Notes under the pieces: model-generated
Database searches by the model: none
Seen by the model: only the letters and a program-made list of their open reading frames with translations
What the model was told of the DNA's origin: nothing
Program-made: the position numbers and the translations under genes
Source: Thalassospira lucentensis MCCC 1A00383 = DSM 14000
Lineage (GTDB): Bacteria > Pseudomonadota > Alphaproteobacteria > Rhodospirillales > Thalassospiraceae
Length of the DNA: 64,000 nt
Reading direction: 5' to 3'
NCBI RefSeq assembly: GCF_000421265.1
Contig: NZ_ATWN01000006.1
Location: forward strand, 124,001-188,000
Part shown: positions 1,459 through 32,537 of the stretch, piece after piece
How the letters are laid out: each line of letters begins with the position of its first letter
Position numbering within the stretch: position 1 is the first letter of the stretch

Positions 1459-4400
1459 TTACTCCGCAGACTGATTGGAATCAGCCCCATCGAGTGAACG
1501 GACTTCGTCGCGCCGGCCAATCATGCGCACGAGCACATAAAAGACCGGAGTCAGGATCAGGCCAAATATCGTCACACCCAGCATGCCCGAGAAAACGGCA
1601 ATACCAATCGCGTGGCGCATCTCGGCCCCGGCACCACTGGACAGAACCAGCGGCACGACGCCCATGATGAAGGCCAGTGATGTCATCAGGATCGGGCGCA
1701 ACCGCAGGCGGCTGGCCTCGATCGCAGCCTGAAGCGTTGTGCGGCCCTGATGTTCAAGTTCGCGGGCGAACTCGACAATCAGGATCGCGTTCTTTGATGC
1801 CAGTCCGGCGAGAACAAACAGACTGATCTGGGTGAAGATGTTGTTATCCCCGCCAAACAGATAGACACCAAAGACAGCAGAAAGGATGCTCATCGGGACG
1901 ATCATGATGACCGCCAGCGGCATGGTCAGGCTTTCGTACTGGGCCGCCAGAACCAGGAACACCAGAAGGATACAGATCGGGAAGATATACATTGCTGTAT
2001 CGCCCGCCAGAATCTGCTGATAGGTCAGCTCTGTCCACTCATAGGACATACCCGGTGGCAAGGTTTCATCGAGTATCTTGATGATGGCGGCTTCTGCCTC
2101 ACCACTGGAATAACCCGGTGCCGCATTGCCGTTCAGATCCGCCGACCGGAACCCGTTGTAGCGCATGGCCGTATCGGGCCCAAACGTTTCGGTAACGGAA
2201 AGAACACTGCCAAGCGGCACCATATCGCCATCCGCATTACGCGTTTGCAGACGCAGGATGTCTTCGGGACTGGATCGATAAGGCTTATCGGCCTGCGCAA
2301 TCACCTGATAGGTACGGCCAAATGTATTGAAATCATTGACATACATTGACCCCAGATAGACCTGCATGGTTCGGAAGATTTCATCAACTGGAATGCCAAG
2401 TTGCTGCACCTTTGTACGATCAAGAGACGCCTGAAGCTGCGGGACGTTGATGTTGTAGCTTGAGAACACACCGGTCAGTTCAGGTGCTGCCCATGCCTTG
2501 GCCAGAACCTGTTTCATGGCATCATCAAGGGCGCGATACCCCTGATCGGAGCGATCCTCCACCTGCAGCTTAAACCCGCCAACCGTGCCAAGACCCTGCA
2601 CCGGCGGTGCGGGGAAAATGGCAACGAAGGCCTCATCAATCGCTCCAAACTTCTGTTGAAGTTTGCCCGCAATCGCCAAGCCCGACAGATCGTCACTTTT
2701 GCGTTCGGCAAAGTCGGTCAGGGTGACAAACACAATGCCCGCACTTGAACTGTTCACAAACCCGTTGATCGAGAGCCCCGGGAAAGAAACGGCACTTTCA
2801 ACACCGGGTTCCTTAAGCGCAATGTCAGACATTTCACGAATGACATCTTCGGTCCGGTCCAGCGTTGCGCCCTGTGGGAGTTGGGCAAAACTGACAAGAT
2901 ACTGTTTGTCCTGAATTGGGACAAAGCCGTTCGGCAATATCTGGAACCCCTGATAGGTCAGGGCCAGCAAGCCGACATAAAGCACCATCATGATTGATTT
3001 CACACCCAGAAGGCGCTTAACCCCCCCGGCATAAAGATCAGTACTACGGTTAAAGAACCGGTTGAACCCACGGAAGAACCAGCCAAAGACAAAGTCCATG
3101 CCGCGTGTCAGCCAATCCTTTGGCGCATCATGACTGCGCAACAAGATCGCCGACAGAGCCGGGCTTAAGGTAAGGGAATTGATCGTCGAAATGATGGTTG
3201 CAATCGCAATGGTCAGAGCAAATTGCTGATAAAACTGGCCGGTCAGGCCACTGATAAAGGCAATCGGCACAAACACACCGGTAATCACAAGCGAGGTTGC
3301 GATGATCGGCCCGGTCACTTCGCGCATGGCCGCAACCGTTGCATCGCGCGGCGACAAGCCGCGTTCGATGTTTCGTTCAACGTTTTCGACAACGACAATC
3401 GCATCATCGACCACGATCCCGATGGCAAGGATCAGACCAAACAGCGACAGCACATTGATCGAAAAGCCCATCAACAGCATCAGCGCAAAGGTCCCGATGA
3501 TCGAAACCGGCACAGCCAGCAGCGGAATAATTGACGCCCGCCATGTTTGCAGGAAGATCGTGACCACCAGAACAACAAGGGCAATGGCCTCAAGCAAGGT
3601 CATGATCACAGATTTGATCGAGCCGCGTACAAAGACGGTCGGGTCATAGACAATGCTGTAATCAAGGTCCTCGGGGAAGTTCTGCTTGAGTTCCTCCATC
3701 GCGGCCCGAACGTTGCTTGAGATATCAAGCGCGTTTGAGCCGGGCGATGCAAAGATCGGCAGGGCGACGGCGGGCTTGTTATCAAGCAGGGAGCGCAGCG
3801 CATATTGCTGTGCCTCCAACTCGATCCGTGCCACATCGCCAAGACGGGTAATCGTGCCATCTTCACCGCGTTTGATGATGATGCTTCCGAACTCTTCGGG
3901 TGTTTCCAAACGGCCACTGATGTTGATCGGCAACTGGAACTGCACGCCGGTGTCATAAGGTGCCCCGCCAATGATCCCCGCAGCAACCTGAACGTTCTGG
4001 CTTTGGATGGCGGCAACCACCTCACCCGCCGTCAGGTTACGTTCGGCAACCTTGTCCGGATTGAGCCAGACACGCATGGCGTAATCGCCCGACCCAAACA
4101 GCCCTACCTGCCCGACGCCGCCAATACGTGCCAGACGGTCCCGCACATTCAGCGTCGCGTAGTTGCGCAAATACAGCATGTCATAGCGTTCATTGGGCGA
4201 CCGCAAATGCACGACCATGGTCAGGTCGGGTGACTGTTTTGATACAGTCACGCCAAGCTGACGCACGACATCGGGCAGACGCGGTTCGGCCTGCGATACG
4301 CGGTTCTGGACTTTTTGCTGCGCCAGATCCGGATCGGTCCCGATTTCAAATGTCACGGTCAGCGACAGGTTGCCATCGGTTGTCGCCAGCGAGTTGATAT

Positions 4401-4638
4401 AAAGCATCCCCTCAACCCCGTTGATTTGCTCTTCAAGCGGGGAGGCAACAGTTTCGGCAATCTCGGCGGGGTTTGCACCGGGAAATTTGGCTTGGACCAC
4501 GACGGTTGGCGGCACGACTTCCGGGTATTCGGAAATCGGCAAACGCCACATGGCAATCAGGCCAGCCAAAAGGATAAGAACGGACAGGACGCCGGCAAAA
4601 ATCGGGCGATCCACGAAAAATCTGGATAAGTTCTGCAT
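1459..4638 (-). CDS. RND multidrug efflux pump, MexF/AcrB-type (HAE-1)
   Basis: Inner-membrane proton/drug antiporter of a tripartite efflux system. The 1059-residue length matches the HAE-1 family. It opens with the hallmark FFVDRPIFAGVLS and first membrane helix, followed by the porter-domain start IPTVVVQ-like motif (PPTVVVQAKFPGAN). The central helix motif GLILAIGIVVDDAIVVVEN near residue 400 carries the paired Asp of the proton relay. It lies 38 bases downstream of the adaptor gene, so both are probably one transcript under the divergent TetR. Overall sequence character is closer to MexF than AcrB, but substrate cannot be read from sequence. No outer-membrane channel gene follows, so a TolC-type partner must be encoded elsewhere. 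Confidence 0.95.
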   Translation of the reverse strand: MQNLSRFFVDRPIFAGVLSVLILLAGLIAMWRLPISEYPEVVPPTVVVQAKFPGANPAEIAETVASPLEEQINGVEGMLYINSLATTDGNLSLTVTFEIGTDPDLAQQKVQNRVSQAEPRLPDVVRQLGVTVSKQSPDLTMVVHLRSPNERYDMLYLRNYATLNVRDRLARIGGVGQVGLFGSGDYAMRVWLNPDKVAERNLTAGEVVAAIQSQNVQVAAGIIGGAPYDTGVQFQLPINISGRLETPEEFGSIIIKRGEDGTITRLGDVARIELEAQQYALRSLLDNKPAVALPIFASPGSNALDISSNVRAAMEELKQNFPEDLDYSIVYDPTVFVRGSIKSVIMTLLEAIALVVLVVTIFLQTWRASIIPLLAVPVSIIGTFALMLLMGFSINVLSLFGLILAIGIVVDDAIVVVENVERNIERGLSPRDATVAAMREVTGPIIATSLVITGVFVPIAFISGLTGQFYQQFALTIAIATIISTINSLTLSPALSAILLRSHDAPKDWLTRGMDFVFGWFFRGFNRFFNRSTDLYAGGVKRLLGVKSIMMVLYVGLLALTYQGFQILPNGFVPIQDKQYLVSFAQLPQGATLDRTEDVIREMSDIALKEPGVESAVSFPGLSINGFVNSSSAGIVFVTLTDFAERKSDDLSGLAIAGKLQQKFGAIDEAFVAIFPAPPVQGLGTVGGFKLQVEDRSDQGYRALDDAMKQVLAKAWAAPELTGVFSSYNINVPQLQASLDRTKVQQLGIPVDEIFRTMQVYLGSMYVNDFNTFGRTYQVIAQADKPYRSSPEDILRLQTRNADGDMVPLGSVLSVTETFGPDTAMRYNGFRSADLNGNAAPGYSSGEAEAAIIKILDETLPPGMSYEWTELTYQQILAGDTAMYIFPICILLVFLVLAAQYESLTMPLAVIMIVPMSILSAVFGVYLFGGDNNIFTQISLFVLAGLASKNAILIVEFARELEHQGRTTLQAAIEASRLRLRPILMTSLAFIMGVVPLVLSSGAGAEMRHAIGIAVFSGMLGVTIFGLILTPVFYVLVRMIGRRDEVRSLDGADSNQSAE

Positions 4639-4676
4639 GACGGTCAGCCTTGCTTATGCGCGCAGTAAAGCACCCC

Positions 4677-5840
4677 TCAGGATGCTGAGGCCTGCAGAAT
4701 TTCGGGGGCGACGGACATACCGGGACGAACCTTCATGATGCCGTTCACAATGACAAGTTCACCAATCTCAAGACCGGATGTGACAATCCGCATGCCGTTG
4801 AGTTCTGACCCCAGCATCACCTGACGGTAGGCAACCGTGTTGTCGGGCTGAACGACATAGACGAATTTACGATCCTGATCGGTGCTGATCGCCTCAGGCG
4901 GGATCATGATGACCTCTTCCTTGGCAAGCGTGCCAAGTTCCAGACTGGCAAAGGTGCCCGGCAGAAGGGTGCCATCAAGATTGTCAAACAGTGCCCGGGT
5001 CCGGATGGTGCCGGTGCGCGCATCAATGCGGTTGTCAAAGCTGTGTACGTGACCAGAAACATGCCGGCCGTTCGACAGCGTCATATTGACCGGGATGCTT
5101 TGCGCGGCATCATCAATCTTGCCACTGGCGCCAAGGCTGGCAAAGAAGGTCTGCTCATCAAGGTCGAAATCGGCATAGATTTTCCCGGTTGAGACAATGG
5201 TGGTCAGAACCGGGGCGTTTGGACCGGCATTGACCTGGTTGCCAACGGTCATTTCGACACGGCTGACACGCCCGTCAATCGGGGCTTTGACATAGGCGTG
5301 ATCAAGTTCGATTTCAGCCAGTTCAAGCTGTGCCTGCGCACGGGTGACCTGACTTTGTGCGACCTGATGGGTGCTAAGCCGTTCGTCATAAACACGTTTT
5401 GACACCGTGCCATTGGACACCAGCTTTTCCGCACGTTCCTTTTCCTTGGAGGCCAGCGACAGGTTTTGACGGGCAACGGAAAGTTCTGCGCGTGCTTCAT
5501 CGACTGCGGCCTGATAGCTGCGCGGGTCAATCACGGCAAGAATATCGCCCTGCTTGACCAACTGACCGTCTTCAAAACCGATTTTGACGATCGCACCACT
5601 GACCTGCGGGCGCAACTGGACTTCTTCGACAGCACTCAGACGGCCGGAAAAGTTGCTCCAGAGACGAACAGAATTACTTTTTACATCGGAAACGGTGACC
5701 GGTGTTGCCATGGGTGCGGACTGAACCGCGACCTCATCGGCGGCGGAACCGGTGACATGCAAGCCATATCCACCGGCGGCAACTGCCAGCGCCAGAACGG
5801 CCGCGGGCAGCAATATTTTGCGTTTTGATCGAGACTGCAT
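4677..5840 (-). CDS. RND periplasmic adaptor (membrane fusion protein), MexE-like
   Basis: Periplasmic adaptor subunit linking the RND pump to an outer-membrane channel. The 387-residue protein starts with a positively charged N-terminus and hydrophobic segment (about 8-28) typical of a signal or anchor. Then come the biotinyl-lipoyl half motif VRPQVSGAIVKIGFEDGQLV-like (here LRPQVSGAIVKIGFEDGQ), an alpha-helical hairpin rich in Ala, Glu and Gln, the second lipoyl half IDGRVSRVEMTVGNQV, and a beta-barrel domain. No lipobox Cys follows the signal. Start at 5840 is chosen over an upstream ATG because a GGAAG/GGAAAG purine run precedes it and the upstream extension is not signal-like. First gene of the efflux operon. 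Confidence 0.93.
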   Translation of the reverse strand: MQSRSKRKILLPAAVLALAVAAGGYGLHVTGSAADEVAVQSAPMATPVTVSDVKSNSVRLWSNFSGRLSAVEEVQLRPQVSGAIVKIGFEDGQLVKQGDILAVIDPRSYQAAVDEARAELSVARQNLSLASKEKERAEKLVSNGTVSKRVYDERLSTHQVAQSQVTRAQAQLELAEIELDHAYVKAPIDGRVSRVEMTVGNQVNAGPNAPVLTTIVSTGKIYADFDLDEQTFFASLGASGKIDDAAQSIPVNMTLSNGRHVSGHVHSFDNRIDARTGTIRTRALFDNLDGTLLPGTFASLELGTLAKEEVIMIPPEAISTDQDRKFVYVVQPDNTVAYRQVMLGSELNGMRIVTSGLEIGELVIVNGIMKVRPGMSVAPEILQASAS

Positions 5841-5901
5841 CTTTCCATCTTCCAAAAGCGTGAGCCGCACATATTGCGGACTGTTTGACCGATAGATGCA
5901 T

Positions 5902-5911
5902 ACCGATCGGT
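5902..5911. promoter_or_regulatory. Predicted TetR operator in the efflux operon promoter
   Basis: Perfect palindrome ACCGATCGGT inside ATACCGATCGGTTTG, 61 bases upstream of the adaptor ATG. The same 15-base pattern with two substitutions occurs in the tetR promoter (6661-6670, opposite strand). The shared consensus ATACCGAYCGGTTYG supports binding by the adjacent TetR protein. Confidence 0.65.
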
Positions 5912-5979
5912 TTGCTTGCAAGGGGAAGAAGGCAAAAAAGTGGTTATTTTTTAAATTATTTTAGAACGCATCCGAAACA

Positions 5980-6618
5980 TCAGGCCGCGTCAGAAGAGCT
6001 TACATCCCTGAATTTACATTGTAAATTGAGGATTCGACAGATGCCTTCACGCAGATCAGACCGAACAGTATCAAGATCATTAAAAACCTTGCCATAGGTC
6101 AAAAGCCCGTGGACATACTGGAAAATCATGCGCGCCAGTGTTGTGACGTCTCCATCCTCGCTGAGCATGCCCTCGCCTTTGAGACCACGCACCATGGATG
6201 CAAGGTATTTGATCTGTTCTTCGGCCAGTTCGCGTGAGCAATCCTGAATTTCGATGTCTTCGGGGCCGACCTGACCGCCTGCGGTGAAAATCGGACAGAC
6301 ACAGACTTCGCTTTCACCGGGGATTGCGTATTTTTCCTGTTTGCTGCAGACCAGATCGATATAGCGGTTCAGTTGCTCAATCGGGGAAATATCGGGCGAA
6401 AAGATCGAACGGAGCTCGTCCTTGCCCTTTTCCCAATGCTGTCGCGCAGACGCGGCAAACAAGGCGGCCTTGCTGTCAAAGTGATGATAGAACGCGCCCT
6501 TGGTGACACCGGCATGTTTGCAGACGTCGCTGACGCCGATATCGTGGTAACTACGGGTCGTTAACAGCTCCATGGCTGTCTCAAGCAGCTTGATCCGGGT
6601 TTCTGCAGCGTTCCTCAT
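5980..6618 (-). CDS. TetR/AcrR-family repressor of the efflux operon
   Basis: One-component ligand-responsive transcription regulator of 212 residues. The N-terminal helix-turn-helix spans about 10-55, with the recognition region VCKHAGVTKGAFYHHF typical of TetR proteins; the rest is the helical ligand-binding and dimerisation domain, which contains CVCPIF and a further Cys that could make it electrophile-sensitive (inference). It is encoded immediately upstream of the adaptor gene on the same strand with its own promoter. Operator-like palindromes lie in front of both units, so autoregulation and control of the pump are likely. The C-terminus has a polar SSSDAA tail. Confidence 0.88.
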   Translation of the reverse strand: MRNAAETRIKLLETAMELLTTRSYHDIGVSDVCKHAGVTKGAFYHHFDSKAALFAASARQHWEKGKDELRSIFSPDISPIEQLNRYIDLVCSKQEKYAIPGESEVCVCPIFTAGGQVGPEDIEIQDCSRELAEEQIKYLASMVRGLKGEGMLSEDGDVTTLARMIFQYVHGLLTYGKVFNDLDTVRSDLREGICRILNLQCKFRDVSSSDAA

Positions 6619-24473: not shown

Positions 24474-26933
24474 ATGAGCAGTCAGTCAAACATTCTTGGA
24501 ACCGCCTTCATGCCCGGCAGTCTTGTGATGCTGTTGAAACGAAGCGGTTTGCGAATTTGCGGACTTGGGCTGGTCCTTTTGGCCATTACCCTGTTCATCA
24601 TGCTGATCGGGTTCCATCCCGGTGATCCGTCGTTTAACCATGCCAGTGACCGGGCGACGCTATTTAATCCGCTGGGTATCGTCGGGGCGTATGGCGCGGA
24701 CTTGATGTTGCGCACCCTTGGTTTGGCGTCCGCATTGCTCACTGTGCTGTTGCTGGGCTGGGGCATGCGGCTGATTGCGGTTAAACCGTTTAACTGGATG
24801 TGGGTACGCTTCCTTGTCTTGCCGCTGGCACTGTTGCTGGTGGCGACCTCCGCTGCTGCCATCGAACCGGGCATGCATTGGCCGTTAACAGTTGGCCTTG
24901 GCGGGTTTGCCGGTGATTTGCTGCTTTCGAAATTGCAAGCCGGCTTTGCCATGATCGGCATTCCCGGGGCGCGTGCGCTGATTGCCTTGGCCTCCATGGT
25001 GTTGGGCATGGTTTTGACCATCTTTTGCATGGCCTATTCGCTGTCTGACTGGGCGCGCCTTGGGGGTGTTCTTTCCTATGCCGCCGGTAAGGTCGTATCA
25101 GGCACCCGGGCCGCCATTCCGGGATCAACCAACGATGAACCGGGGACCAAACGCACGGCACGGTCGCGGCAGGAACCATCGATGGATAGTGGCAAAGGCA
25201 AAATGGGAACCTCCATTTCCACCCGCCGGTCCGAACCGCCCGCTGGTCACACCGGCGATGACGACGGATATGACGAGCTTGACGACGACGTAGATCACGA
25301 ACCGCCGGTTCATATCGTCGCCGCACCGGCGGCAAAACTGCAACCCAGTGACAAGGCTTCCGCCCAGCGTCAGGCATCCTTTGACCTTGGATCAGAAGAA
25401 TACCGTTTCCCGCCGCTTGATCTTTTGAGTGAGCCTGACCCGGCCGACGCCAACCAGATTGATCAGGAAGCACTGGCGCAAAACGCCCGTCTTCTGGAAA
25501 CCGTGTTGCAGGACTTTGGCGTCAAGGGCGAAATCGTTCAGGTCCGCCCGGGCCCCGTTGTGACCCTCTATGAACTTGAACCTGCAGCCGGGGTGAAATC
25601 ATCGCGCGTGATTGGCTTGGCCGATGATATTGCACGCTCCATGAGTGCGATTGCCGCCCGTGTTGCTGTGGTACCGGGTCGTAACGTTATCGGGATTGAA
25701 TTACCAAATTCGCGGCGTGAAACCGTGCATTTGCACGAAATTCTGGCATCGAGTGATTTTGAAAAAAATACCGGCAAGCTTAATATGAGCTTGGGCAAGG
25801 ATATTGGCGGAACCCCGGTGATTGCCGATCTTTCGAAAATGCCGCACTTGCTGATTGCCGGGACCACCGGCTCGGGTAAATCGGTTGGTGTGAACGCAAT
25901 GATCCTGTCCTTGCTGTATCGCTTAAAACCCGAAGAATGCCGCTTCATCATGATCGATCCGAAAATGTTGGAGCTGTCGATTTATGACGGTATCCCGCAT
26001 CTTCTGACCCCGGTTGTCACCGACCCGCACAAGGCGGTTGTCGCGCTTAAATGGGCGGTGCGCGAAATGGAAGACCGCTACCGCGCTATGAGCCAGGTCG
26101 GGGTGCGTAACATTGCCGGGTACAACAAACGCATCAAGGAAGCGGCGGCCAAGGGTGAACAGCTTACACGGCGGGTTCAAACCGGGTTCGACCCGGAAAC
26201 CGGCAAGCCGATCTTTGAAGATCAGGAACTGCCGATGGAGCCGCTGCCGTTTATCGTCGTGATTGTCGATGAGATGGCCGATCTTATGCTGGTGGCGGGC
26301 AAGGATGTCGAAGCATCGATCCAGCGACTGGCGCAAATGGCCCGTGCGGCTGGCCTACATCTGATCATGGCGACACAGCGTCCGTCGGTTGACGTGATCA
26401 CCGGCACGATCAAGGCCAACTTCCCGACCCGTATTTCCTATTCCGTAACGTCCAAGATCGATTCCCGTACCATTCTTGGTGAAATGGGCGCCGAGCAGCT
26501 TCTGGGTCAGGGCGATATGCTTTACATGGGCCAAGGCGGCCGTTTGCAGCGTGTCCATGGCCCGTTTGTATCGGACGAGGAAGTCGAAAGCATCGTCAAG
26601 CACCTGCGTGATCAGGGCGACCCGACCTATCTTGAAACCGTTACCGAAGAACCCGAAGAAGACCCGGTTGCCGCCTATATGGCAGGCGGCAATGCTGGTG
26701 CGGGGGGCGGAAATGGATCAGACGATGATCTGTACAATCAGGCGGTCGGGATTGTGCTTCGCGAGAAGAAAGCATCCACCAGCTTTATCCAGCGCAAACT
26801 GTCGATTGGCTATAACCGGGCCGCACGCATCATCGAACAGATGGAAGAAAACGGCGTCGTATCCGGTGCCAACCATGTTGGCAAACGCGAAGTGCTGATG
26901 GAAAATATGGATGGTTCGCCTTACGAGTATTAA
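24474..26933 (+). CDS. ftsK: DNA translocase FtsK
   Basis: Divisome-anchored hexameric DNA pump that clears and positions chromosome termini during septation. The 819 residues comprise four N-terminal membrane helices (to about 190), an acidic, low-complexity linker (about 210-320), and the motor with Walker [16 protein letters not shown] and Walker [13 protein letters not shown]. The C-terminal gamma winged helix (from about 750) includes [20 protein letters not shown]. The linker is short relative to enteric FtsK. The last 37 codons are duplicated, in decayed form, about 505 bases downstream (27326-27435), beyond the first lanthipeptide precursor gene. The functional 3' end is this one. Confidence 0.95.
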
Positions 26934-27019: not shown

Positions 27020-27226
27020 TTACCAGCAATGCGTTCTGGAATTCGTTGCTGCTGCGGCATTCAATTCCGGGTCGATCCAGTCACAGGATGCACCTTGTGT
27101 GCTGGCTGCAGCACTCATCTCCTGATCAATGTCTTCAGCCGCATTTACATTCTGCGCCAACAACACCCCACCATTGATCTTCCAATTGGCCATGACATCG
27201 CCGGTGGTATTTGCCATCACGTTCAT
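27020..27226 (-). CDS. Putative class II lanthipeptide precursor 1 (LanA-like)
   Basis: 68 residues, no catalytic domain. The leader part is acidic (AAEDIDQEM) and includes W followed by NGG; the C-terminal part, SAAASTQGASC to the end RTHCW, is rich in Ser/Thr with exactly two Cys (residues 48 and 67). This allows up to two (methyl)lanthionine rings. It aligns with the second precursor along its length: W, GG(V/A)L, DQ, AAST-G-SC, PE(L/I) and a Cys near the end. ATG 27226 chosen: AGGGATGAG lies upstream at good spacing; 27217 (65 residues) and 27235 are alternatives. Adjacent LanM supports the call; cleavage site unknown. Confidence 0.72.
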   Translation of the reverse strand: MNVMANTTGDVMANWKINGGVLLAQNVNAAEDIDQEMSAAASTQGASCDWIDPELNAAAATNSRTHCW

Positions 27227-27325
27227 ATTTCTCATCCCTGAATTGCATAAGAAAGAACTTACTTTCCAATGAAAATATAACCGGACAGACAAGTCAATTG
27301 GGGAATACAGGGCGTCACGCGTGTG

Positions 27326-27435
27326 CGGCACGCACCATCCAAACAGATGTAGGAATACGGCGTGGTTTAGAGCACCACCATATCGATAAACACGAAGTGC
27401 TGATGGAAATATCGATGGTTCGCCTTACGAGCATT
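27326..27435 (+). pseudogene. Decayed duplicate of the ftsK 3' end
   Basis: Aligns to ftsK 26822-26931 with two one-base deletions and roughly 80% identity by eye. The best part is CGAAGTGCTGATGGAAA and ATGGTTCGCCTTACGAG, both exact. The deletions break the frame, so it encodes only fragments (KHEVLMEI instead of KREVLMEN). Weaker similarity may extend back to about 27290. It lies between the two lanthipeptide precursor genes. Confidence 0.8.
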
Positions 27436-27454
27436 CAAGTCCGTGGCATTTGAG

Positions 27455-27487
27455 AGGGGTGGGCCATTGTCACGGCCCACCCCTTTT
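27455..27487 (+). terminator. Terminator downstream of the ftsK remnant
   Basis: Perfect 11-base stem AGGGGTGGGCC (27455-27465) / GGCCCACCCCT (27474-27484) followed by TTT on the plus strand. The U-run polarity fits a rightward transcript, so this may be the original ftsK terminator displaced with the old 3' end. Confidence 0.7.
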
Positions 27488-27622
27488 CAAAACGTCAGCT
27501 GGCGAAGTCGATGTCCGCACATGGCAAGTCTGCAAGACCACCGTCAGTCGACCCGGTTAGGAAGCTGCACACCTGAACTGATGCGATCCTTGCGCAGCAC
27601 TGATTTCCAAAGCAGTTACCCG

Positions 27623-27838
27623 CTAACCGCACCGAAGTTGAGGCCCGAGGGACCCAGCAGAACTTTGGATTTCCGGATTAAACCCAGTCGGGCAGCTCGG
27701 ACCACCGGTCGTGCTTGCCGCAGAGGCCAGATGCTGATCAGAACGCACAATGGGTGCGTTCATCGGATCTGTCAATGCGCCACCACTCGCCTGCCACGCA
27801 CTTAATTTGTTCGCGACTCCTTGAACTGTGTTTTCCAT
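27623..27838 (-). CDS. Putative class II lanthipeptide precursor 2 (LanA-like)
   Basis: 71 residues. Leader MENTVQGVANKLSAWQASGG, then a segment ending SDQHLASAAS, and a Ser/Thr/Cys-containing C-terminus (STTGGPSC, Cys 49; QLRCG, Cys 70). Two Cys and seven Ser/Thr after residue 37 permit two thioether rings. Shares with precursor 1 the Trp, GG-hydrophobic-L, DQ, AAST-G-SC, PE(I/L) order, so the two are paralogues; spacer residues between the Cys differ. Start fixed by AAGGG eight bases upstream and a canonical promoter 46-74 bases upstream. It begins 109 bases after the LanM stop on the same strand. Confidence 0.74.
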   Translation of the reverse strand: MENTVQGVANKLSAWQASGGALTDPMNAPIVRSDQHLASAASTTGGPSCPTGFNPEIQSSAGSLGPQLRCG

Positions 27839-27883
27839 ACATATAACCCTTGATTTCTGTTTATTCAGAATAATAGCGCTTTG

Positions 27884-27912
27884 ATTGAATATCAGGACAC
27901 GAATCCTGTCAA
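27884..27912 (-). promoter_or_regulatory. Promoter of lanA2
   Basis: On the minus strand: -35 TTGACA (27907-27912), 17-base spacer, -10 TTCAAT (27884-27889). A palindrome TTATTC-A-GAATAA (27861-27873) sits just downstream of the -10, in an operator-like position. It suggests that the precursors are transcribed separately from, and perhaps more strongly than, lanM. Confidence 0.6.
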
Positions 27913-27947
27913 CTTGTGCCTTTATAAAACCCTGAAATTCAGCCAAA

Positions 27948-30900
27948 TCATGCCAGTGTCAGTACAGGTCTGATTTCCCTTGGGGCGCCAATTTCAAGAA
28001 GCGCCTGTCCAATGCCCGGCAAACCTTGCATCAAGCCGGTCTGAAAGTCGCGGTCGCGCGTCATCATCCCGACAGCATCGCCGTGATCAAGCCGATTGAT
28101 CCACGCAGATAAACGATGATTGAAATGATGCTCCAGATCATCGGCGCCACACCCGAGTTCCAACGCATATCGTAACATTGAAAACCGCCCGGCATGACCA
28201 CAGCATAGATTATCACGTCCGCCGTCCTGTCTTGCCAGAACCGCTGCAATTGCCGTTTCAATTTCGTCGCGAATGGTCGGGTCATCCAGCACATCAAGGG
28301 CCGCCATCCGGGCAAATCCGATACCTGCTGCCCCGTGACACCATTGGACCGGATCACGAACCGGTTTTTCGCCGCGCAAATCGGGCCATCCATTTTCGAC
28401 CGGATCAAACAGGCTGCGTTCAAACGCAAGACCACGTTTGGCCAAACTCAGAAATGCCTCATCACCGCAGGCCTGATAGAGTTTCAGAAGGGCCAAAACC
28501 GACTCGGCTGCGCCATGGGACATGCCTGCCAGCGCGCGATCCCCAATACCTGTCCATGCTGCCGGGTCTGCGGGAAGATGTTTTCCGCACATTATTGCCC
28601 GATCCAGCACGGCCTGATCGCCGGTGTCACGGTAAAGCGCCAGCAATCCCAGTATCGCCCCTGACACCCCGCTTATGACATCAAGTGCCTTGTCCGCATC
28701 AACAGCGACATCATCAATCCATTCGGACATGCGGACGGCTTCATCGCGCAATTCAGGTGCATCAAGCAAGTCGGCACAGCGTACCAACACATAAACAAGG
28801 CCGCCAAATCCCTCAAACCCACCGACTGACCCCAGCTGAGCTGTGGTCGCGCGCGGGGCTTCAAGTGCTGCCAAAGCCAGTGTTTTCCACTCCCCAGCCG
28901 GATCAATCGCATGGCATCCGGCCAAGAAAATGGCCACTCCGGCCGTGCCTTCATAAAACTGCTCGCCCATCGCGGTGACCTGAAGGGCTGCGCCATCCGG
29001 TGTGGCATCTGCGGTCATCCAGCACGCAGCGCCATCACACAGGATCGCCTGATTGGCAACATATCGTGCGATGGACAGTGCTGATTGGCGGGCGGCGGCC
29101 GCGATATCGTTGCAAAGGGGCGTATCTGCCCATGGTCTGTGCGGCGGCAGGTCAGTAAACCGCGTTGAAAGAACAAACTGACGAATGATTGCACAATCAT
29201 ATTCCAGATTGGCTTTTAGGTCAGCGAGGCGATCACGAAGGTTGGGTAACACGGCCGACGCGGTAAAATCGGTGGAAACAAGCATGCCATCGGCCCACAC
29301 ACCATCCTGATCAGTCTTGCCGCTAAAAAGTGGCACGTCCATTCTGGTTAATGCTGTGCGTTCGTGGGCAAGAATACCCCAACCCGGATAGTCATCAATA
29401 TCCCAACGCGCACGACGTGCGAGTCTTTCGAAATGCAGGCTCCAGACAAAACCATCCTGCTGATTTTGCGGCGTACGGATGGTGTATTCGAGTTCCTGAT
29501 AATAGGCGGTTGGGCGCAACACATGGCGAATGCGCACATCCTTAAATCCACCAAGCGGCCCGTCTTTGGCAAGGAACGCAGCGCTGTTATCAGACAGGAA
29601 ATTAATGGTGTCGCAGAACCCGTCGATAATCTCTGTAACGTGATCAGCCGCATCGGCTGGTTGCCCACCAAAGGTAATGCCCAAGCCGGCAAGTGGCTTT
29701 TCCTCTGTGACGGTTTCAAAGACCATATTGCCCTGATTAATGTTCATTAACCGGACATCGCGCACCGGCTTTGGCACGGATGAGGCAAGCCCCCCGTCAT
29801 CAACCCAATGCCCGGCAATGTTTTTACGTTGCGCCAGCAGCCCCACAGCAATCACGCCTTTGCCAAAGCTATGGGTCGCAAGCTCCTTTGCATGCAGCGC
29901 CGGAGTTCCGCCCGGCAGATGACGCAATTCCGGCTGAAACAGTGTTTCCAGATCAATGACCACAGGGCGCCCATCTGCAATCACGACGTTTTCATGATGC
30001 ATGTCACTGCCCTTCAGACAGTAAAGCAGCGCAAGCAACTGACCAGATGCGCGATAGAAAACTGACGCCCGGTCCGATGACAGGGCTGCGTCATGGTCGA
30101 CATAGGCCATCCAGCCATAATCTGGCAGGCACCAGGTTTGCACAGCACCAAGCCGGATGTCCGAGCCGTTATTGACCAACCAGTCCGACAGGCACTTCCA
30201 GGCCTGCTCTGCACCGATTGGGCGCGGCTTATACACAAGCTTGGCCCCTGTATCGAATTCAAGGATCAGGACTGAGCGCCCATGATCGTGAGAATCTGAA
30301 ATCCCGCCGGTAATCGCCCGAACAGCTGTCACACCCCGAAGTTCCGGGAAATGGTCCCCAAACGCGGCCATATCACCCACCAAACGGTCAATAAACTCGC
30401 CTACTGTCGCAATCCACTGATCGACAATGGTTGCCAGCAGGCGGATCATGACAGGGCGGTTTGACACCAGATTGGCAAAGGGTCCGCTGCGCAGTGCAGA
30501 TGTGAAGGCGTCATAGACTTCTGGCCCGGATGTGTCTTCCGGCTCGATACCAACGGCCTTACGAAACGACTCAAAGCTTTCATAAAGTGTGTGCGTATAA
30601 ACCTTGGCCAAGCGCCGGATCAAAATACGATCAAGGTCGTGTCTTGCATCCGCACTCAGTAGGGCCGCATCAAAACCCTGAACCCTTGCCCGTGCAGCAA
30701 CGACAACCGGCCAAATCAAATCTGCAAACGGCACGTGTGTCTGGATATCAGGGGGGGCAGTCCCCGGTGGCATCACCGCCACCAGATACAATCGCGTCAA
30801 ACACCCAACGCGCGGTCGCAAGCCATTTCGGAGGTTCTTCCCCGGCACGGAGCACAACATCGCCAAGATACGGGGCAACGTCATTTGCCTTTAGACCGTC

Positions 30901-31113
30901 TCTGGCAAGACGTCGGGTAAACAGGTCAGCATCCCCGTTAGAAGCAAATTCACACCATTGCTGCAGAAATCGCTGATGAGTATCGGCAAGCTCAGATTCA
31001 GATGCAGAGTGTGCTTCATCTTTGCCAGAGTCAGGAACATATTTTCCAGAAAGACGCTCATCTATGGTGGCGGCCTTTGCCGCGATTGATGCCCAAAACG
31101 GACCGATATCCAT
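27948..31113 (-). CDS. Class II lanthipeptide synthetase LanM, frame interrupted by a C7 tract
   Basis: Bifunctional enzyme that dehydrates Ser/Thr and cyclises them with Cys. It is encoded in two frames: 31113-30748 (121 residues) and the remainder to 27948; removing one C from the C7 tract at 30751-30757 gives one 1054-residue protein of normal LanM length. Dehydratase motifs: SDSHDHGRSVLILEF, LVYKPRP, DMHHENVV and VIDLETLF. The LanC-like cyclase has WCHGAAGIGFAR and CCGHAGRF, so the zinc ligands are three Cys (925, 970, 971), the CCG type known from ProcM-like enzymes. Start at 31113 follows AAGGGG; the upstream in-frame ATG at 31137 is less well placed. As sequenced, a separate downstream product could start at ATG 30773. 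Two precursor genes follow. Confidence 0.88.
30748..30757 (-). other. Frameshift site in lanM: C7 tract followed by TGA
   Basis: Seven G on the plus strand (30751-30757). In coding sense the frame reads GAC-TGC-CCC-CCC-TGA and stops; the downstream frame continues as CCT-GAT-ATC-CAG. A +1 slip at CCC-TGA, or loss of one C, joins the halves. Confidence 0.85.
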
Positions 31114-31205: not shown

Positions 31206-32147
31206 ATGCAACTTGTCGCCATCACGCGGGAAAACATCGCGCCCTATGTCGCGTTGCGCATGGAAATCGCCGACGAAGAAGGACGGCGGTACTACCAAAC
31301 CATTGATCTGGCGACCGCCATTCTGACGCAAGGCAGTGACTATGTGCTTCAGGACGAAGACGGCAAGATGCAGGCGGCTGTCACAATCCGGCGTAAAGAA
31401 ACCCGTGAGGACGGCCTTCTGGTGATGATGTCGGCCGAAGGCAAAGACAAAAAACCCGAAACAAATGCAAGCTTACTGCGCGCAGTTCTTGCGACGGAAA
31501 ACACGAATATCGCCACGCGTGACACCCGTTACCACGTTTACAACCCGTCTGAAGTGACTTTGCCGCACACAGAAATGACAGAGATGGGGTTTGCCGAGAT
31601 ACCCGGAACCTATCGCTATAAGCGTGAACCCGGGCCACCCCGGTCCGGTGAATTCCCACATGCGGACCGGGCGGTTGAACGCGGATATAAAACACTTGTG
31701 ATTGACGATTCTTATGTCGCTTCTGATCCGGAAATCTTTGAAAAGTTGGCGGACATCTATAACCGCGCCTTTTCAAATCGCGAAAGCGTTACCCCATCCA
31801 CACCTGAGCGCATGCGCAAGAACTATGAAGCTGACGCCAATGATATCATCATCGCCAAACTCGGTGATGAAGTTACAAGCAGTATTACCCTCAGCTATCT
31901 GGGAGATTCCGTTCTTTCACCGCAATATACCTGCATGCGACGCCACTGGGGAACCGGGTCGGTTGACCTGATGTGTCGACATCTGGCCCAGTTGGTCGCA
32001 GACCGGTGGAACGTTCCGATTATTGGCTATGCCGAAGCAAGAAATGCCGCGTCGTGGAAGGCGCTTGAACGGTTCGGGCTAACGCGGGTTGAAGAACTCA
32101 TGATCTGGGAACGCCGTATTCCGGCAGGCGAAGCATTTACGATATAG
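31206..32147 (+). CDS. GNAT-family N-acetyltransferase, two-domain
   Basis: About 313 residues. The C-terminal half (about 165-305) is GNAT-like: an acyl-CoA loop region around HWGTGSVDLMCRHLAQLVADRW and the helix-strand end YAEARNAASWKALERFGLTRVEELMIWE. The N-terminal half (MQLVAITRENIAPYVALRM, then a degenerate strand pattern) looks like a second, weaker GNAT fold. Substrate unknown. It is divergent from lanM with 92 bases between the starts, so a tailoring role on the lanthipeptide is possible but not shown. A TTG at 31197 is an alternative start closer to GAGAAG. Its own bidirectional terminator follows. Confidence 0.68.
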   Translation: MQLVAITRENIAPYVALRMEIADEEGRRYYQTIDLATAILTQGSDYVLQDEDGKMQAAVTIRRKETREDGLLVMMSAEGKDKKPETNASLLRAVLATENTNIATRDTRYHVYNPSEVTLPHTEMTEMGFAEIPGTYRYKREPGPPRSGEFPHADRAVERGYKTLVIDDSYVASDPEIFEKLADIYNRAFSNRESVTPSTPERMRKNYEADANDIIIAKLGDEVTSSITLSYLGDSVLSPQYTCMRRHWGTGSVDLMCRHLAQLVADRWNVPIIGYAEARNAASWKALERFGLTRVEELMIWERRIPAGEAFTI

Positions 32148-32216: not shown

Positions 32217-32537
32217 TCAGATCGACTGGTTGATCCAGTCAACAAGTGCGCTTTTCGGGAGTGCGCCGACTTTCATCGCTGCAACTTCGCCGCCCTTGAA
32301 GATCATCAGGGTAGGGATGCCGCGCACACCGTATTTTGCCGGGGTGTTCGGGTTTTCGTCGATATTCACCTTGGCGATCGTGAGCTTGCCGCCCAGTTCA
32401 CCGGCGATTTCATCGAGATATGGCGCAATCTGCTTACACGGACCGCACCATTCTGCCCAGAAATCGACCAGAACCGGGTCGTTGGAACCCAGAACGTCGC
32501 TATCGAACGAACCGTCGGAAACTTTAATCGTGGTCAT
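32217..32537 (-). CDS. trxA: Thioredoxin
   Basis: 106-residue classical thioredoxin: a general cytosolic dithiol donor. The redox motif [10 protein letters not shown] is at about 28-37, cis-Pro in [12 protein letters not shown] near 75, and the conserved NIDENP and GALPKSAL segments follow. Length and spacing are fully typical. Lies 164 bases downstream of addA on the same strand, an arrangement often seen in alphaproteobacteria; probably transcribed from its own promoter as well. Confidence 0.95.

Follow-up and report, generated by a model that had tools for sequence, protein, structure and literature searches.

Class II lanthipeptide loci of Thalassospira with modular, putatively multicore precursors and adjoining GNAT acyltransferases

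A modular lanthipeptide family

The stretch of DNA analysed herein (the window) comprises 64,000 nt of Thalassospira lucentensis MCCC 1A00383 (contig NZ_ATWN01000006.1, positions 124,001 to 188,000), and contains a locus composed of a lanthipeptide synthetase gene (LanM), two short precursor genes and a gene for a GNAT-family acyltransferase. The locus probably makes class II lanthipeptides from modular precursors, with the modules cut apart and the products acylated by the GNAT; the enzyme family and its catalytic residues, the co-occurrence of the genes and the modular architecture were directly observed. The main interest is the family, in which modular precursors, scattered over the genome in one relative, are adjoined by GNATs, and of which the window holds a small member. 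An earlier note, made from the window sequence, is supported with regard to class and to the unfamiliar nature of the precursors, but missed the meaning of a frameshift in LanM, the GNAT and the modularity.

The synthetase and its distribution

LanM occupies positions 27948..31113 of the minus strand, and its main open reading frame (ORF) matches the dehydratase domain DUF4135 (E-value 5e-86) and LANC_like (5e-48) in Pfam, as well as the NCBIfam model for type 2 LanM (TIGR03897; 625 bits against a cut-off of 304). The presence of both domains within a single protein places the enzyme in class II, as previously proposed, and the LanMs of two further loci (L022 and L054) are likewise assigned by the NCBIfam scan. 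The motifs SDSHDHGRSV, DMHHENVV and IDLETLF, alongside the WC and CC zinc sites (WCHG and CCGHAGR), were all recovered from this strand and interval. The dehydratase and zinc-ligand residues, which presumably serve the roles that these names imply, are invariant across a ten-row alignment; so too is the CCG motif at the LanC zinc site, which assigns the enzymes to the CCG (ProcM-like) type, in agreement with the earlier note. The sequence relatives of the window LanM in the PDB, LicM2 and CylM, share the LanM family, but when aligned LicM2 displays WCHG and LCHG and CylM displays LCHG, whilst the second site here reads CCG.

With regard to distribution, the named LanM relatives (T. lohafexi, 89 % identity; Thalassospira sp. 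HF15, 64 %) identify the genus as Thalassospira, in keeping with the marine-type alphaproteobacterium surmised beforehand. LanM matches at an E-value of 1e-3 or better occur in 11 of 60 related genomes, own included, of which eight harbour a full-length enzyme (44–100 % identity), namely seven of the 29 genomes of the genus and one, G038, from another family of the same order. The remaining three matches are partial (25–47 % identity), with two, in G027 and G022, falling within the genus; the 22 genus genomes termed LanM-negative therefore include these two, with a distant LanM or a LanC-like protein. LanM, GNAT and precursors co-occur in the same 7/29 genus genomes, and the trio is also present in two of the three genomes of a further genus, g65, and in G038. 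Across the class, matches at 1e-20 were obtained in nine of 385 genomes (own included), and beyond the window genome only G092 and G220 possess full-length relatives (45 % identity).

The sole plasmid relative is a distant Nostoc LanM (29 %) that provides a useful contrast, as it is accompanied by a Nif11 precursor, a peptidase-ABC transporter and an HlyD protein; no plasmid match was found for the GNAT. A viral origin was also considered and rejected, as none of the 31 viral stretches fitting a peptide pattern encodes a LanM relative. Both partial matches within the genus have surroundings of their own. In G027 (L023; G027:C2:466000-483000), a distant LanM (25 % identity) lies beside a small ORF outside the present precursor family, which we take to resemble precursors with nitrile-hydratase-type leaders, and the same region holds large ORFs resembling maturases of other ribosomally synthesised and post-translationally modified peptides (RiPPs). 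In G022 (L024; G022:C85), a separate LanC-like protein of 446 residues (5068-6408) has a small Cys-rich peptide ORF upstream (2511-2846).

The precursors and their leader

Both window precursors are Ser/Thr/Cys-rich, lie downstream of LanM on the minus strand and have AGGG or GGG upstream of their starts. Precursor 1 (27020..27226; 68 aa) has a leader ending in WKINGGV and two modules, for which rings are predicted within STQGASC and TNSRTHC; precursor 2 (27623..27838; 71 aa) has a leader ending in WQASGGA and likewise two modules, with STTGGPSC and SLGPQLRC as the predicted ring segments, giving four predicted rings for the two precursors of the window. The earlier description of two precursors holds for the genes, but it missed the two modules in each, a structure that becomes evident through comparison with relatives.

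A profile of leader plus core was constructed from 12 rows, both window peptides among them, and matches precursor 1 at 1e-23 and precursor 2 at 2e-22; a hidden Markov model (HMM) of the leader only, built from 22 small ORFs beside LanM in genus genomes, matches precursor 2 at 7e-6, and each of these values was obtained with the peptide's own sequence inside the model. The leader-plus-core profile matches 7/29 genus genomes, all of them LanM-positive, and none of the 22 others, which bears out the reading of the two short genes as precursors. The possibility raised with that reading, that such precursors would not be conserved beside LanM, is contradicted by these seven genomes and by two other genera. 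Matches are confined to the LanM locus with the exception of one weak example in G021. Two profile matches (G021:C6:125165-125386 and G014:C17:638125-638331) contain an in-stretch stop codon, TAG and TAA, respectively, and represent either precursors in decay or readings that run beyond an end. The homologue of precursor 1 in the T. lohafexi locus (L016 12506-12781) is 55 % identical, with a ratio of non-synonymous to synonymous divergence (dN/dS) of 0.43 and a dN of 0.28; the precursors evolve faster than the enzymes.

In all seven genus genomes, small ORFs by LanM contain a Wxx(S/T/N/C/H)GG sequence starting approximately 14 residues past a Met; the typical leader end is Wxx(S/T)GGA, and the leader spans approximately 21 residues in Thalassospira. 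The leader-only HMM additionally finds precursors beside the 45 %-identical LanMs of G092 and G220, which belong to another family (two matches at approximately 1e-4 and one weak, at 0.08). Across the order, the precursor profile at 1e-5 matches at least 9 of 317 genomes in at least 2 of 115 genera, counts that are lower bounds because no more than 18 candidates were scored for any genome among the matches listed. The window precursors match no family model in Pfam or NCBIfam, in line with the unfamiliar peptides described in the earlier note. Two further precursors have no Pfam match, and three more scanned against NCBIfam yielded no Nif11 and a single chance-level hit to a protease model (E-value 0.07); no leader family was matched by any of the seven precursors scanned (Pfam and/or NCBIfam). 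The precursors thus appear, from the scans run, to constitute a family without a model. According to the available text of PMC7268733, ORFs of more than 120 residues were dropped in the precursor search of that study, which would hide longer precursors of the present family.

Modular architecture

Each module consists of a (D/E)-x-(L/I)-x-A anchor, a Ser/Thr six residues past the Leu and, another three to eight residues along, a Cys. Following the leader, one to six modules are present per precursor by pattern, and seven can be counted by eye in one G021 precursor. The counts derive from 36 precursors (23 from the seven Thalassospira genomes, three from g65 and ten from G038); four more, from G664, were read later and stand outside them. 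Of 114 post-leader Cys residues, 107 have a Ser/Thr 3–9 positions upstream, 96 have an anchor and 95 have both; 500 shuffles gave on average 19.8 such full modules and never more than 33. This pattern was drawn up with the sequences already in view, and some of the 36 precursors were retrieved with a profile in which core positions are included. A cleaner test is afforded by G038, where the ten precursors are spread over six contigs: all 34 DDGL-type anchors have a Cys ahead of the next anchor, and a Ser/Thr occurs at offset +9 in 30 of 34, with other offsets giving 0–14 of 34.

Anchor positions are near constant and ring residues variable, with the Thalassospira strings hand-registered on Ser/Thr, such that the evidence for spacing is that from G038. 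One unit, LTRSPQTCYS, is shared by four Thalassospira loci, two of which contain it twice; the window lacks it. Within a single genome, G021, the number of modules spans 1 to 6. A repeated, recognition-like segment precedes each variable core, as is characteristic of multicore RiPP precursors. Among the 2526 residues that follow the leaders, 14 are lysine; the module segments contain 8 in 1750 residues, and 24/36 precursors have none after the leader.

Repeat-rich ORFs of other kinds were also noted. In G020 (L057; G020:C5), a 515-residue ORF (2486-4033) with DDENLAA/DEELAAG repeats and Pro/Cys-rich stretches is flanked by a YcaO/SagD-like maturase of the thiazole/oxazole-modified microcin type (1-2202) and a GNAT (4180-5100); its anchor is similarly acidic-Leu-Ala, with different ring chemistry. 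In G021 (L056; G021:C33), small repeat-rich ORFs lie at 1306-1842 and 3840-4277 (GGLSTLQYGGLSTLKY...; DEELGAFPG/DEDLDI repeats with Cys), the second of which adjoins a GNAT (4375-5307).

The GNAT acyltransferase

Divergently oriented from LanM is a plus-strand gene (31206..32147) for a GNAT-family acyltransferase of 313 residues, probably tandem, identified by Pfam and by profile. The locus extent given in the earlier note (27020-31113) captured LanM and the precursors but left this gene out. The match to Pfam Acetyltransf_3 (E-value 2e-4, 22.7 bits) lies under the curated cut-off of 25.4, and a P-loop-like RRHWGTG is located in the C-terminal half. A GNAT profile of 11 copies matches exactly the seven LanM-positive of the 29 genus genomes and none of the 22 others; at some of the seven loci the gene is present in two or three copies, and three of these genomes contain one further weak match each away from the locus. 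The window genome has one match, versus two in T. lohafexi, and the protein displays a dN/dS of 0.19. Two copies are present in each of the two g65 genomes (of three) that bear the present LanM type. In G038, one GNAT lies beside LanM and two beside precursors on contigs lacking LanM, and these GNATs away from LanM are the best evidence that the enzyme acts on the peptides.

An AlphaFold model built from four sequences (predicted local distance difference test, pLDDT, 60; predicted template modelling score, pTM, 0.40) resembles tandem GNATs such as MAB_4324 and VipF in whole-length matches with TM-scores of approximately 0.2-0.3 and root-mean-square deviations of mostly 17-20 Å, so that the modelled fold is simply consistent with a tandem GNAT. 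A PDB sequence search with the GNAT returned no match.

Insertion site and state of the window copy

The locus is bounded on the left by an ORF (24474..26933, plus strand) that we take to be an ftsK-type DNA translocase, and on the right by a presumed thioredoxin gene, trxA (32217..32537, minus strand), which is present in 29/29 genus genomes; both lie outside the system. In 4/22 LanM-negative genus genomes the end of ftsK is approximately 90 bp from trxA, and in 16/22 a chemotaxis-receptor gene adjoins trxA; these arrangements mark the lanthipeptide locus as an accessory insertion in a fixed position. Across Thalassospira, the ftsK-trxA interval may be empty, or contain the chemotaxis receptor, the lanthipeptide locus or sometimes both. 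The receptor, present in four of six related loci (L017, L018, L019 and L021; identified by domain scan for one of the four), was rejected as a locus member, as a related gene lies by trxA in those 16 LanM-negative genomes. A C39 transporter/protease was similarly rejected as a constant part, with matches in 3/7 LanM-positive and 5/22 LanM-negative genus genomes. Besides LanM and GNAT, the window interval between ftsK and trxA contains no ORF of more than 166 aa, and no evident arginase gene.

In the window, LanM is divided between an N-terminal ORF (31137-30748) and the main ORF (30884-27948), which are in different frames and overlap at a run of seven C. A one-base difference near 30748-30760 separates the window from six aligned relatives, all of which are uninterrupted; the joined LanM of the earlier note conceals this break. 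Relative to T. lohafexi, dN/dS is 0.17 before the break and 0.19 after it, and the frameshift is therefore either a recent change or a sequencing/assembly error. Programmed frameshifting is unsupported, as the six relatives need none. Separately, LanM dS in this comparison (0.30-0.40) exceeds the values for ftsK and for the neighbouring GNAT (0.14 each) two- to threefold, a hint of recombination inside the locus.

Alternative explanations

Several observations weigh against modules that are cut apart and acylated. The LanM frame is broken in the window, 7/36 precursors have one module by pattern (although, on inspection by eye, the two from G038 among them contain more), and the leader HMM finds no precursor around the G038 LanM (neighbourhood L022). 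Between ftsK and trxA, no ORF of the window was recognisable as a protease or transporter, so that module release and export are not accounted for; C39 peptidase matches are missing from 4/7 LanM-positive genus genomes, which makes the usual LanT route no fixed component of the system. For the GNAT, the Pfam match is weak and the model poor (pLDDT 60), and the leader GG could equally mark one single cleavage. This last point underlies a possible, if less likely, alternative, in which the leader is removed once at GG to release a long multi-ring peptide, with the anchors acting as spacers or LanM docking sites. It agrees with leaders that finish in GG(A), as do about a third of all lanthipeptide leaders (PMC7268733, in its available text), and with the interval holding no recognised protease for repeated cutting. 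It accords poorly with the span of one to six modules in G021, the recurrence of LTRSPQTCYS and anchors far more constant than ring residues, all of which follow the pattern of multicore precursors, nor do the four genomes without a C39 match favour it. That the short ORFs are chance and LanM acts on something else can be given very little credence: the window precursors match no family model, but within the genus the profile matches LanM-positive genomes only, the leader-only HMM detects related peptides next to LanM in another family, and the present precursor type accompanies the present LanM type in a third genus.

A decaying window locus that yields no product, which would be compatible with any reading of the family, is appreciably likely without being the favoured view. 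The frameshift near the LanM N-terminus and the single GNAT match, versus two in T. lohafexi, suggest decay, whilst, apart from that one break, LanM, the GNAT and both precursors have open frames and dN/dS is 0.17-0.19. Homopolymer runs are common sites of sequencing error, and an assembly error is for this reason about as likely. With regard to the GNAT, it is rather unlikely that it tailors nothing in the final peptide and instead acylates the active product to protect the producer, or serves another substrate. In its favour, GNAT Pfams are enriched near class II clusters (14 % versus 5.4 % in a control set) according to the available portion of PMC12715929, the authors of which favour a toxin-module reading; protection alone, however, leaves unexplained the GNATs beside precursors distant from LanM and the two to three copies at some loci, and tailoring and protection may be one reaction. 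Selidamide-type chemistry, in which the GNAT would place a fatty acid on Lys or ornithine side chains, is improbable. The GNAT in the cluster fits it, as does phaeornamide, from a marine alphaproteobacterium, which couples LanM with a GNAT (PMC9505594, as far as its available text goes), and NpuN is predicted to be a tandem GNAT (PMC13060382, likewise). The expected Lys/ornithine acceptor and NHLP (nitrile hydratase leader peptide) or Nif11 leader are nevertheless missing here: modules are almost devoid of lysine, the window interval shows no evident arginase, and none of the seven scanned precursors matches a leader family, in contrast to the NHLP or Nif11 leaders in cluster 1 of the NpuN network. 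The P-loop-like motif, compared by description, is in the C-terminal half here and in the N-terminal domain of NpuN (PMC13060382).

Relation to known systems

Prochlorosin precursors are scattered over the genome, and likewise those of G038. The prochlorosin system (ProcM, Prochlorococcus/Synechococcus) also shares a CCG-type LanM, one enzyme facing many hypervariable precursors and, possibly, export without dedicated transporters, as described in the available text of PMC10783134, which also gives the meaning of the CCG motif. It differs in its Nif11-type leaders, found in neither the window precursors nor the five others scanned, whilst the present family combines a short leader that matches no model with multi-module precursors and with GNAT linkage. 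The selidamides/nostolysamides (phaeornamide, PhaM+PhaN; NpuM+NpuN) share a class II LanM with a GNAT but depart from the present family in leader and acceptor. The cyanobactins and microviridins similarly repeat a constant segment before each variable core, with ring chemistry different from that here. The multicore strategy, described for microviridin in PMC5934393, is not yet reported for lanthipeptides according to the accessible part of a 2026 paper (PMC13343206), and chains of one-ring units look like a new arrangement for this class. A literature search of titles and abstract openings, the coverage of which did not extend to the primary selidamide paper, returned no paper on the present locus.

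Proposed mechanism and significance

In the proposed scheme, the short leader would be bound by a single CCG-type LanM, which would dehydrate the Ser/Thr six residues past the Leu/Ile of each anchor and join it to the next Cys, forming one (methyl)lanthionine ring per module. A protease encoded elsewhere might then cut near each anchor to release several small ring peptides per precursor, as the modules are probably separate cores. The neighbouring GNAT probably caps the modules, most likely at the new N-terminal amine because they hold almost no lysine, a scarcity in the predicted peptides that argues against general acylation of lysine side chains and for the N-terminus. In the window strain, where the LanM frame is interrupted, the copy would reflect a sequencing error or a recently silenced locus, and this small copy may be inactive.

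Taken as a whole, we lean modestly towards a multicore lanthipeptide family, with one LanM, dozens of one-ring modules, anchor cleavage and N-terminal acylation by dedicated GNATs. If so, approximately 36 modules on the ten G038 precursors would pass one LanM, and the tandem-module precursor would unite LanM chemistry with the multicore logic of the cyanobactins, with many thioether macrocycles genetically encoded on one transcript. Owing to the fixed spacing from anchor to ring, LanM register and leader recognition lend themselves to direct testing, and exchanging the modules looks straightforward. The GNATs beside precursors point to acylation on lysine-poor peptides, unlike the selidamides.

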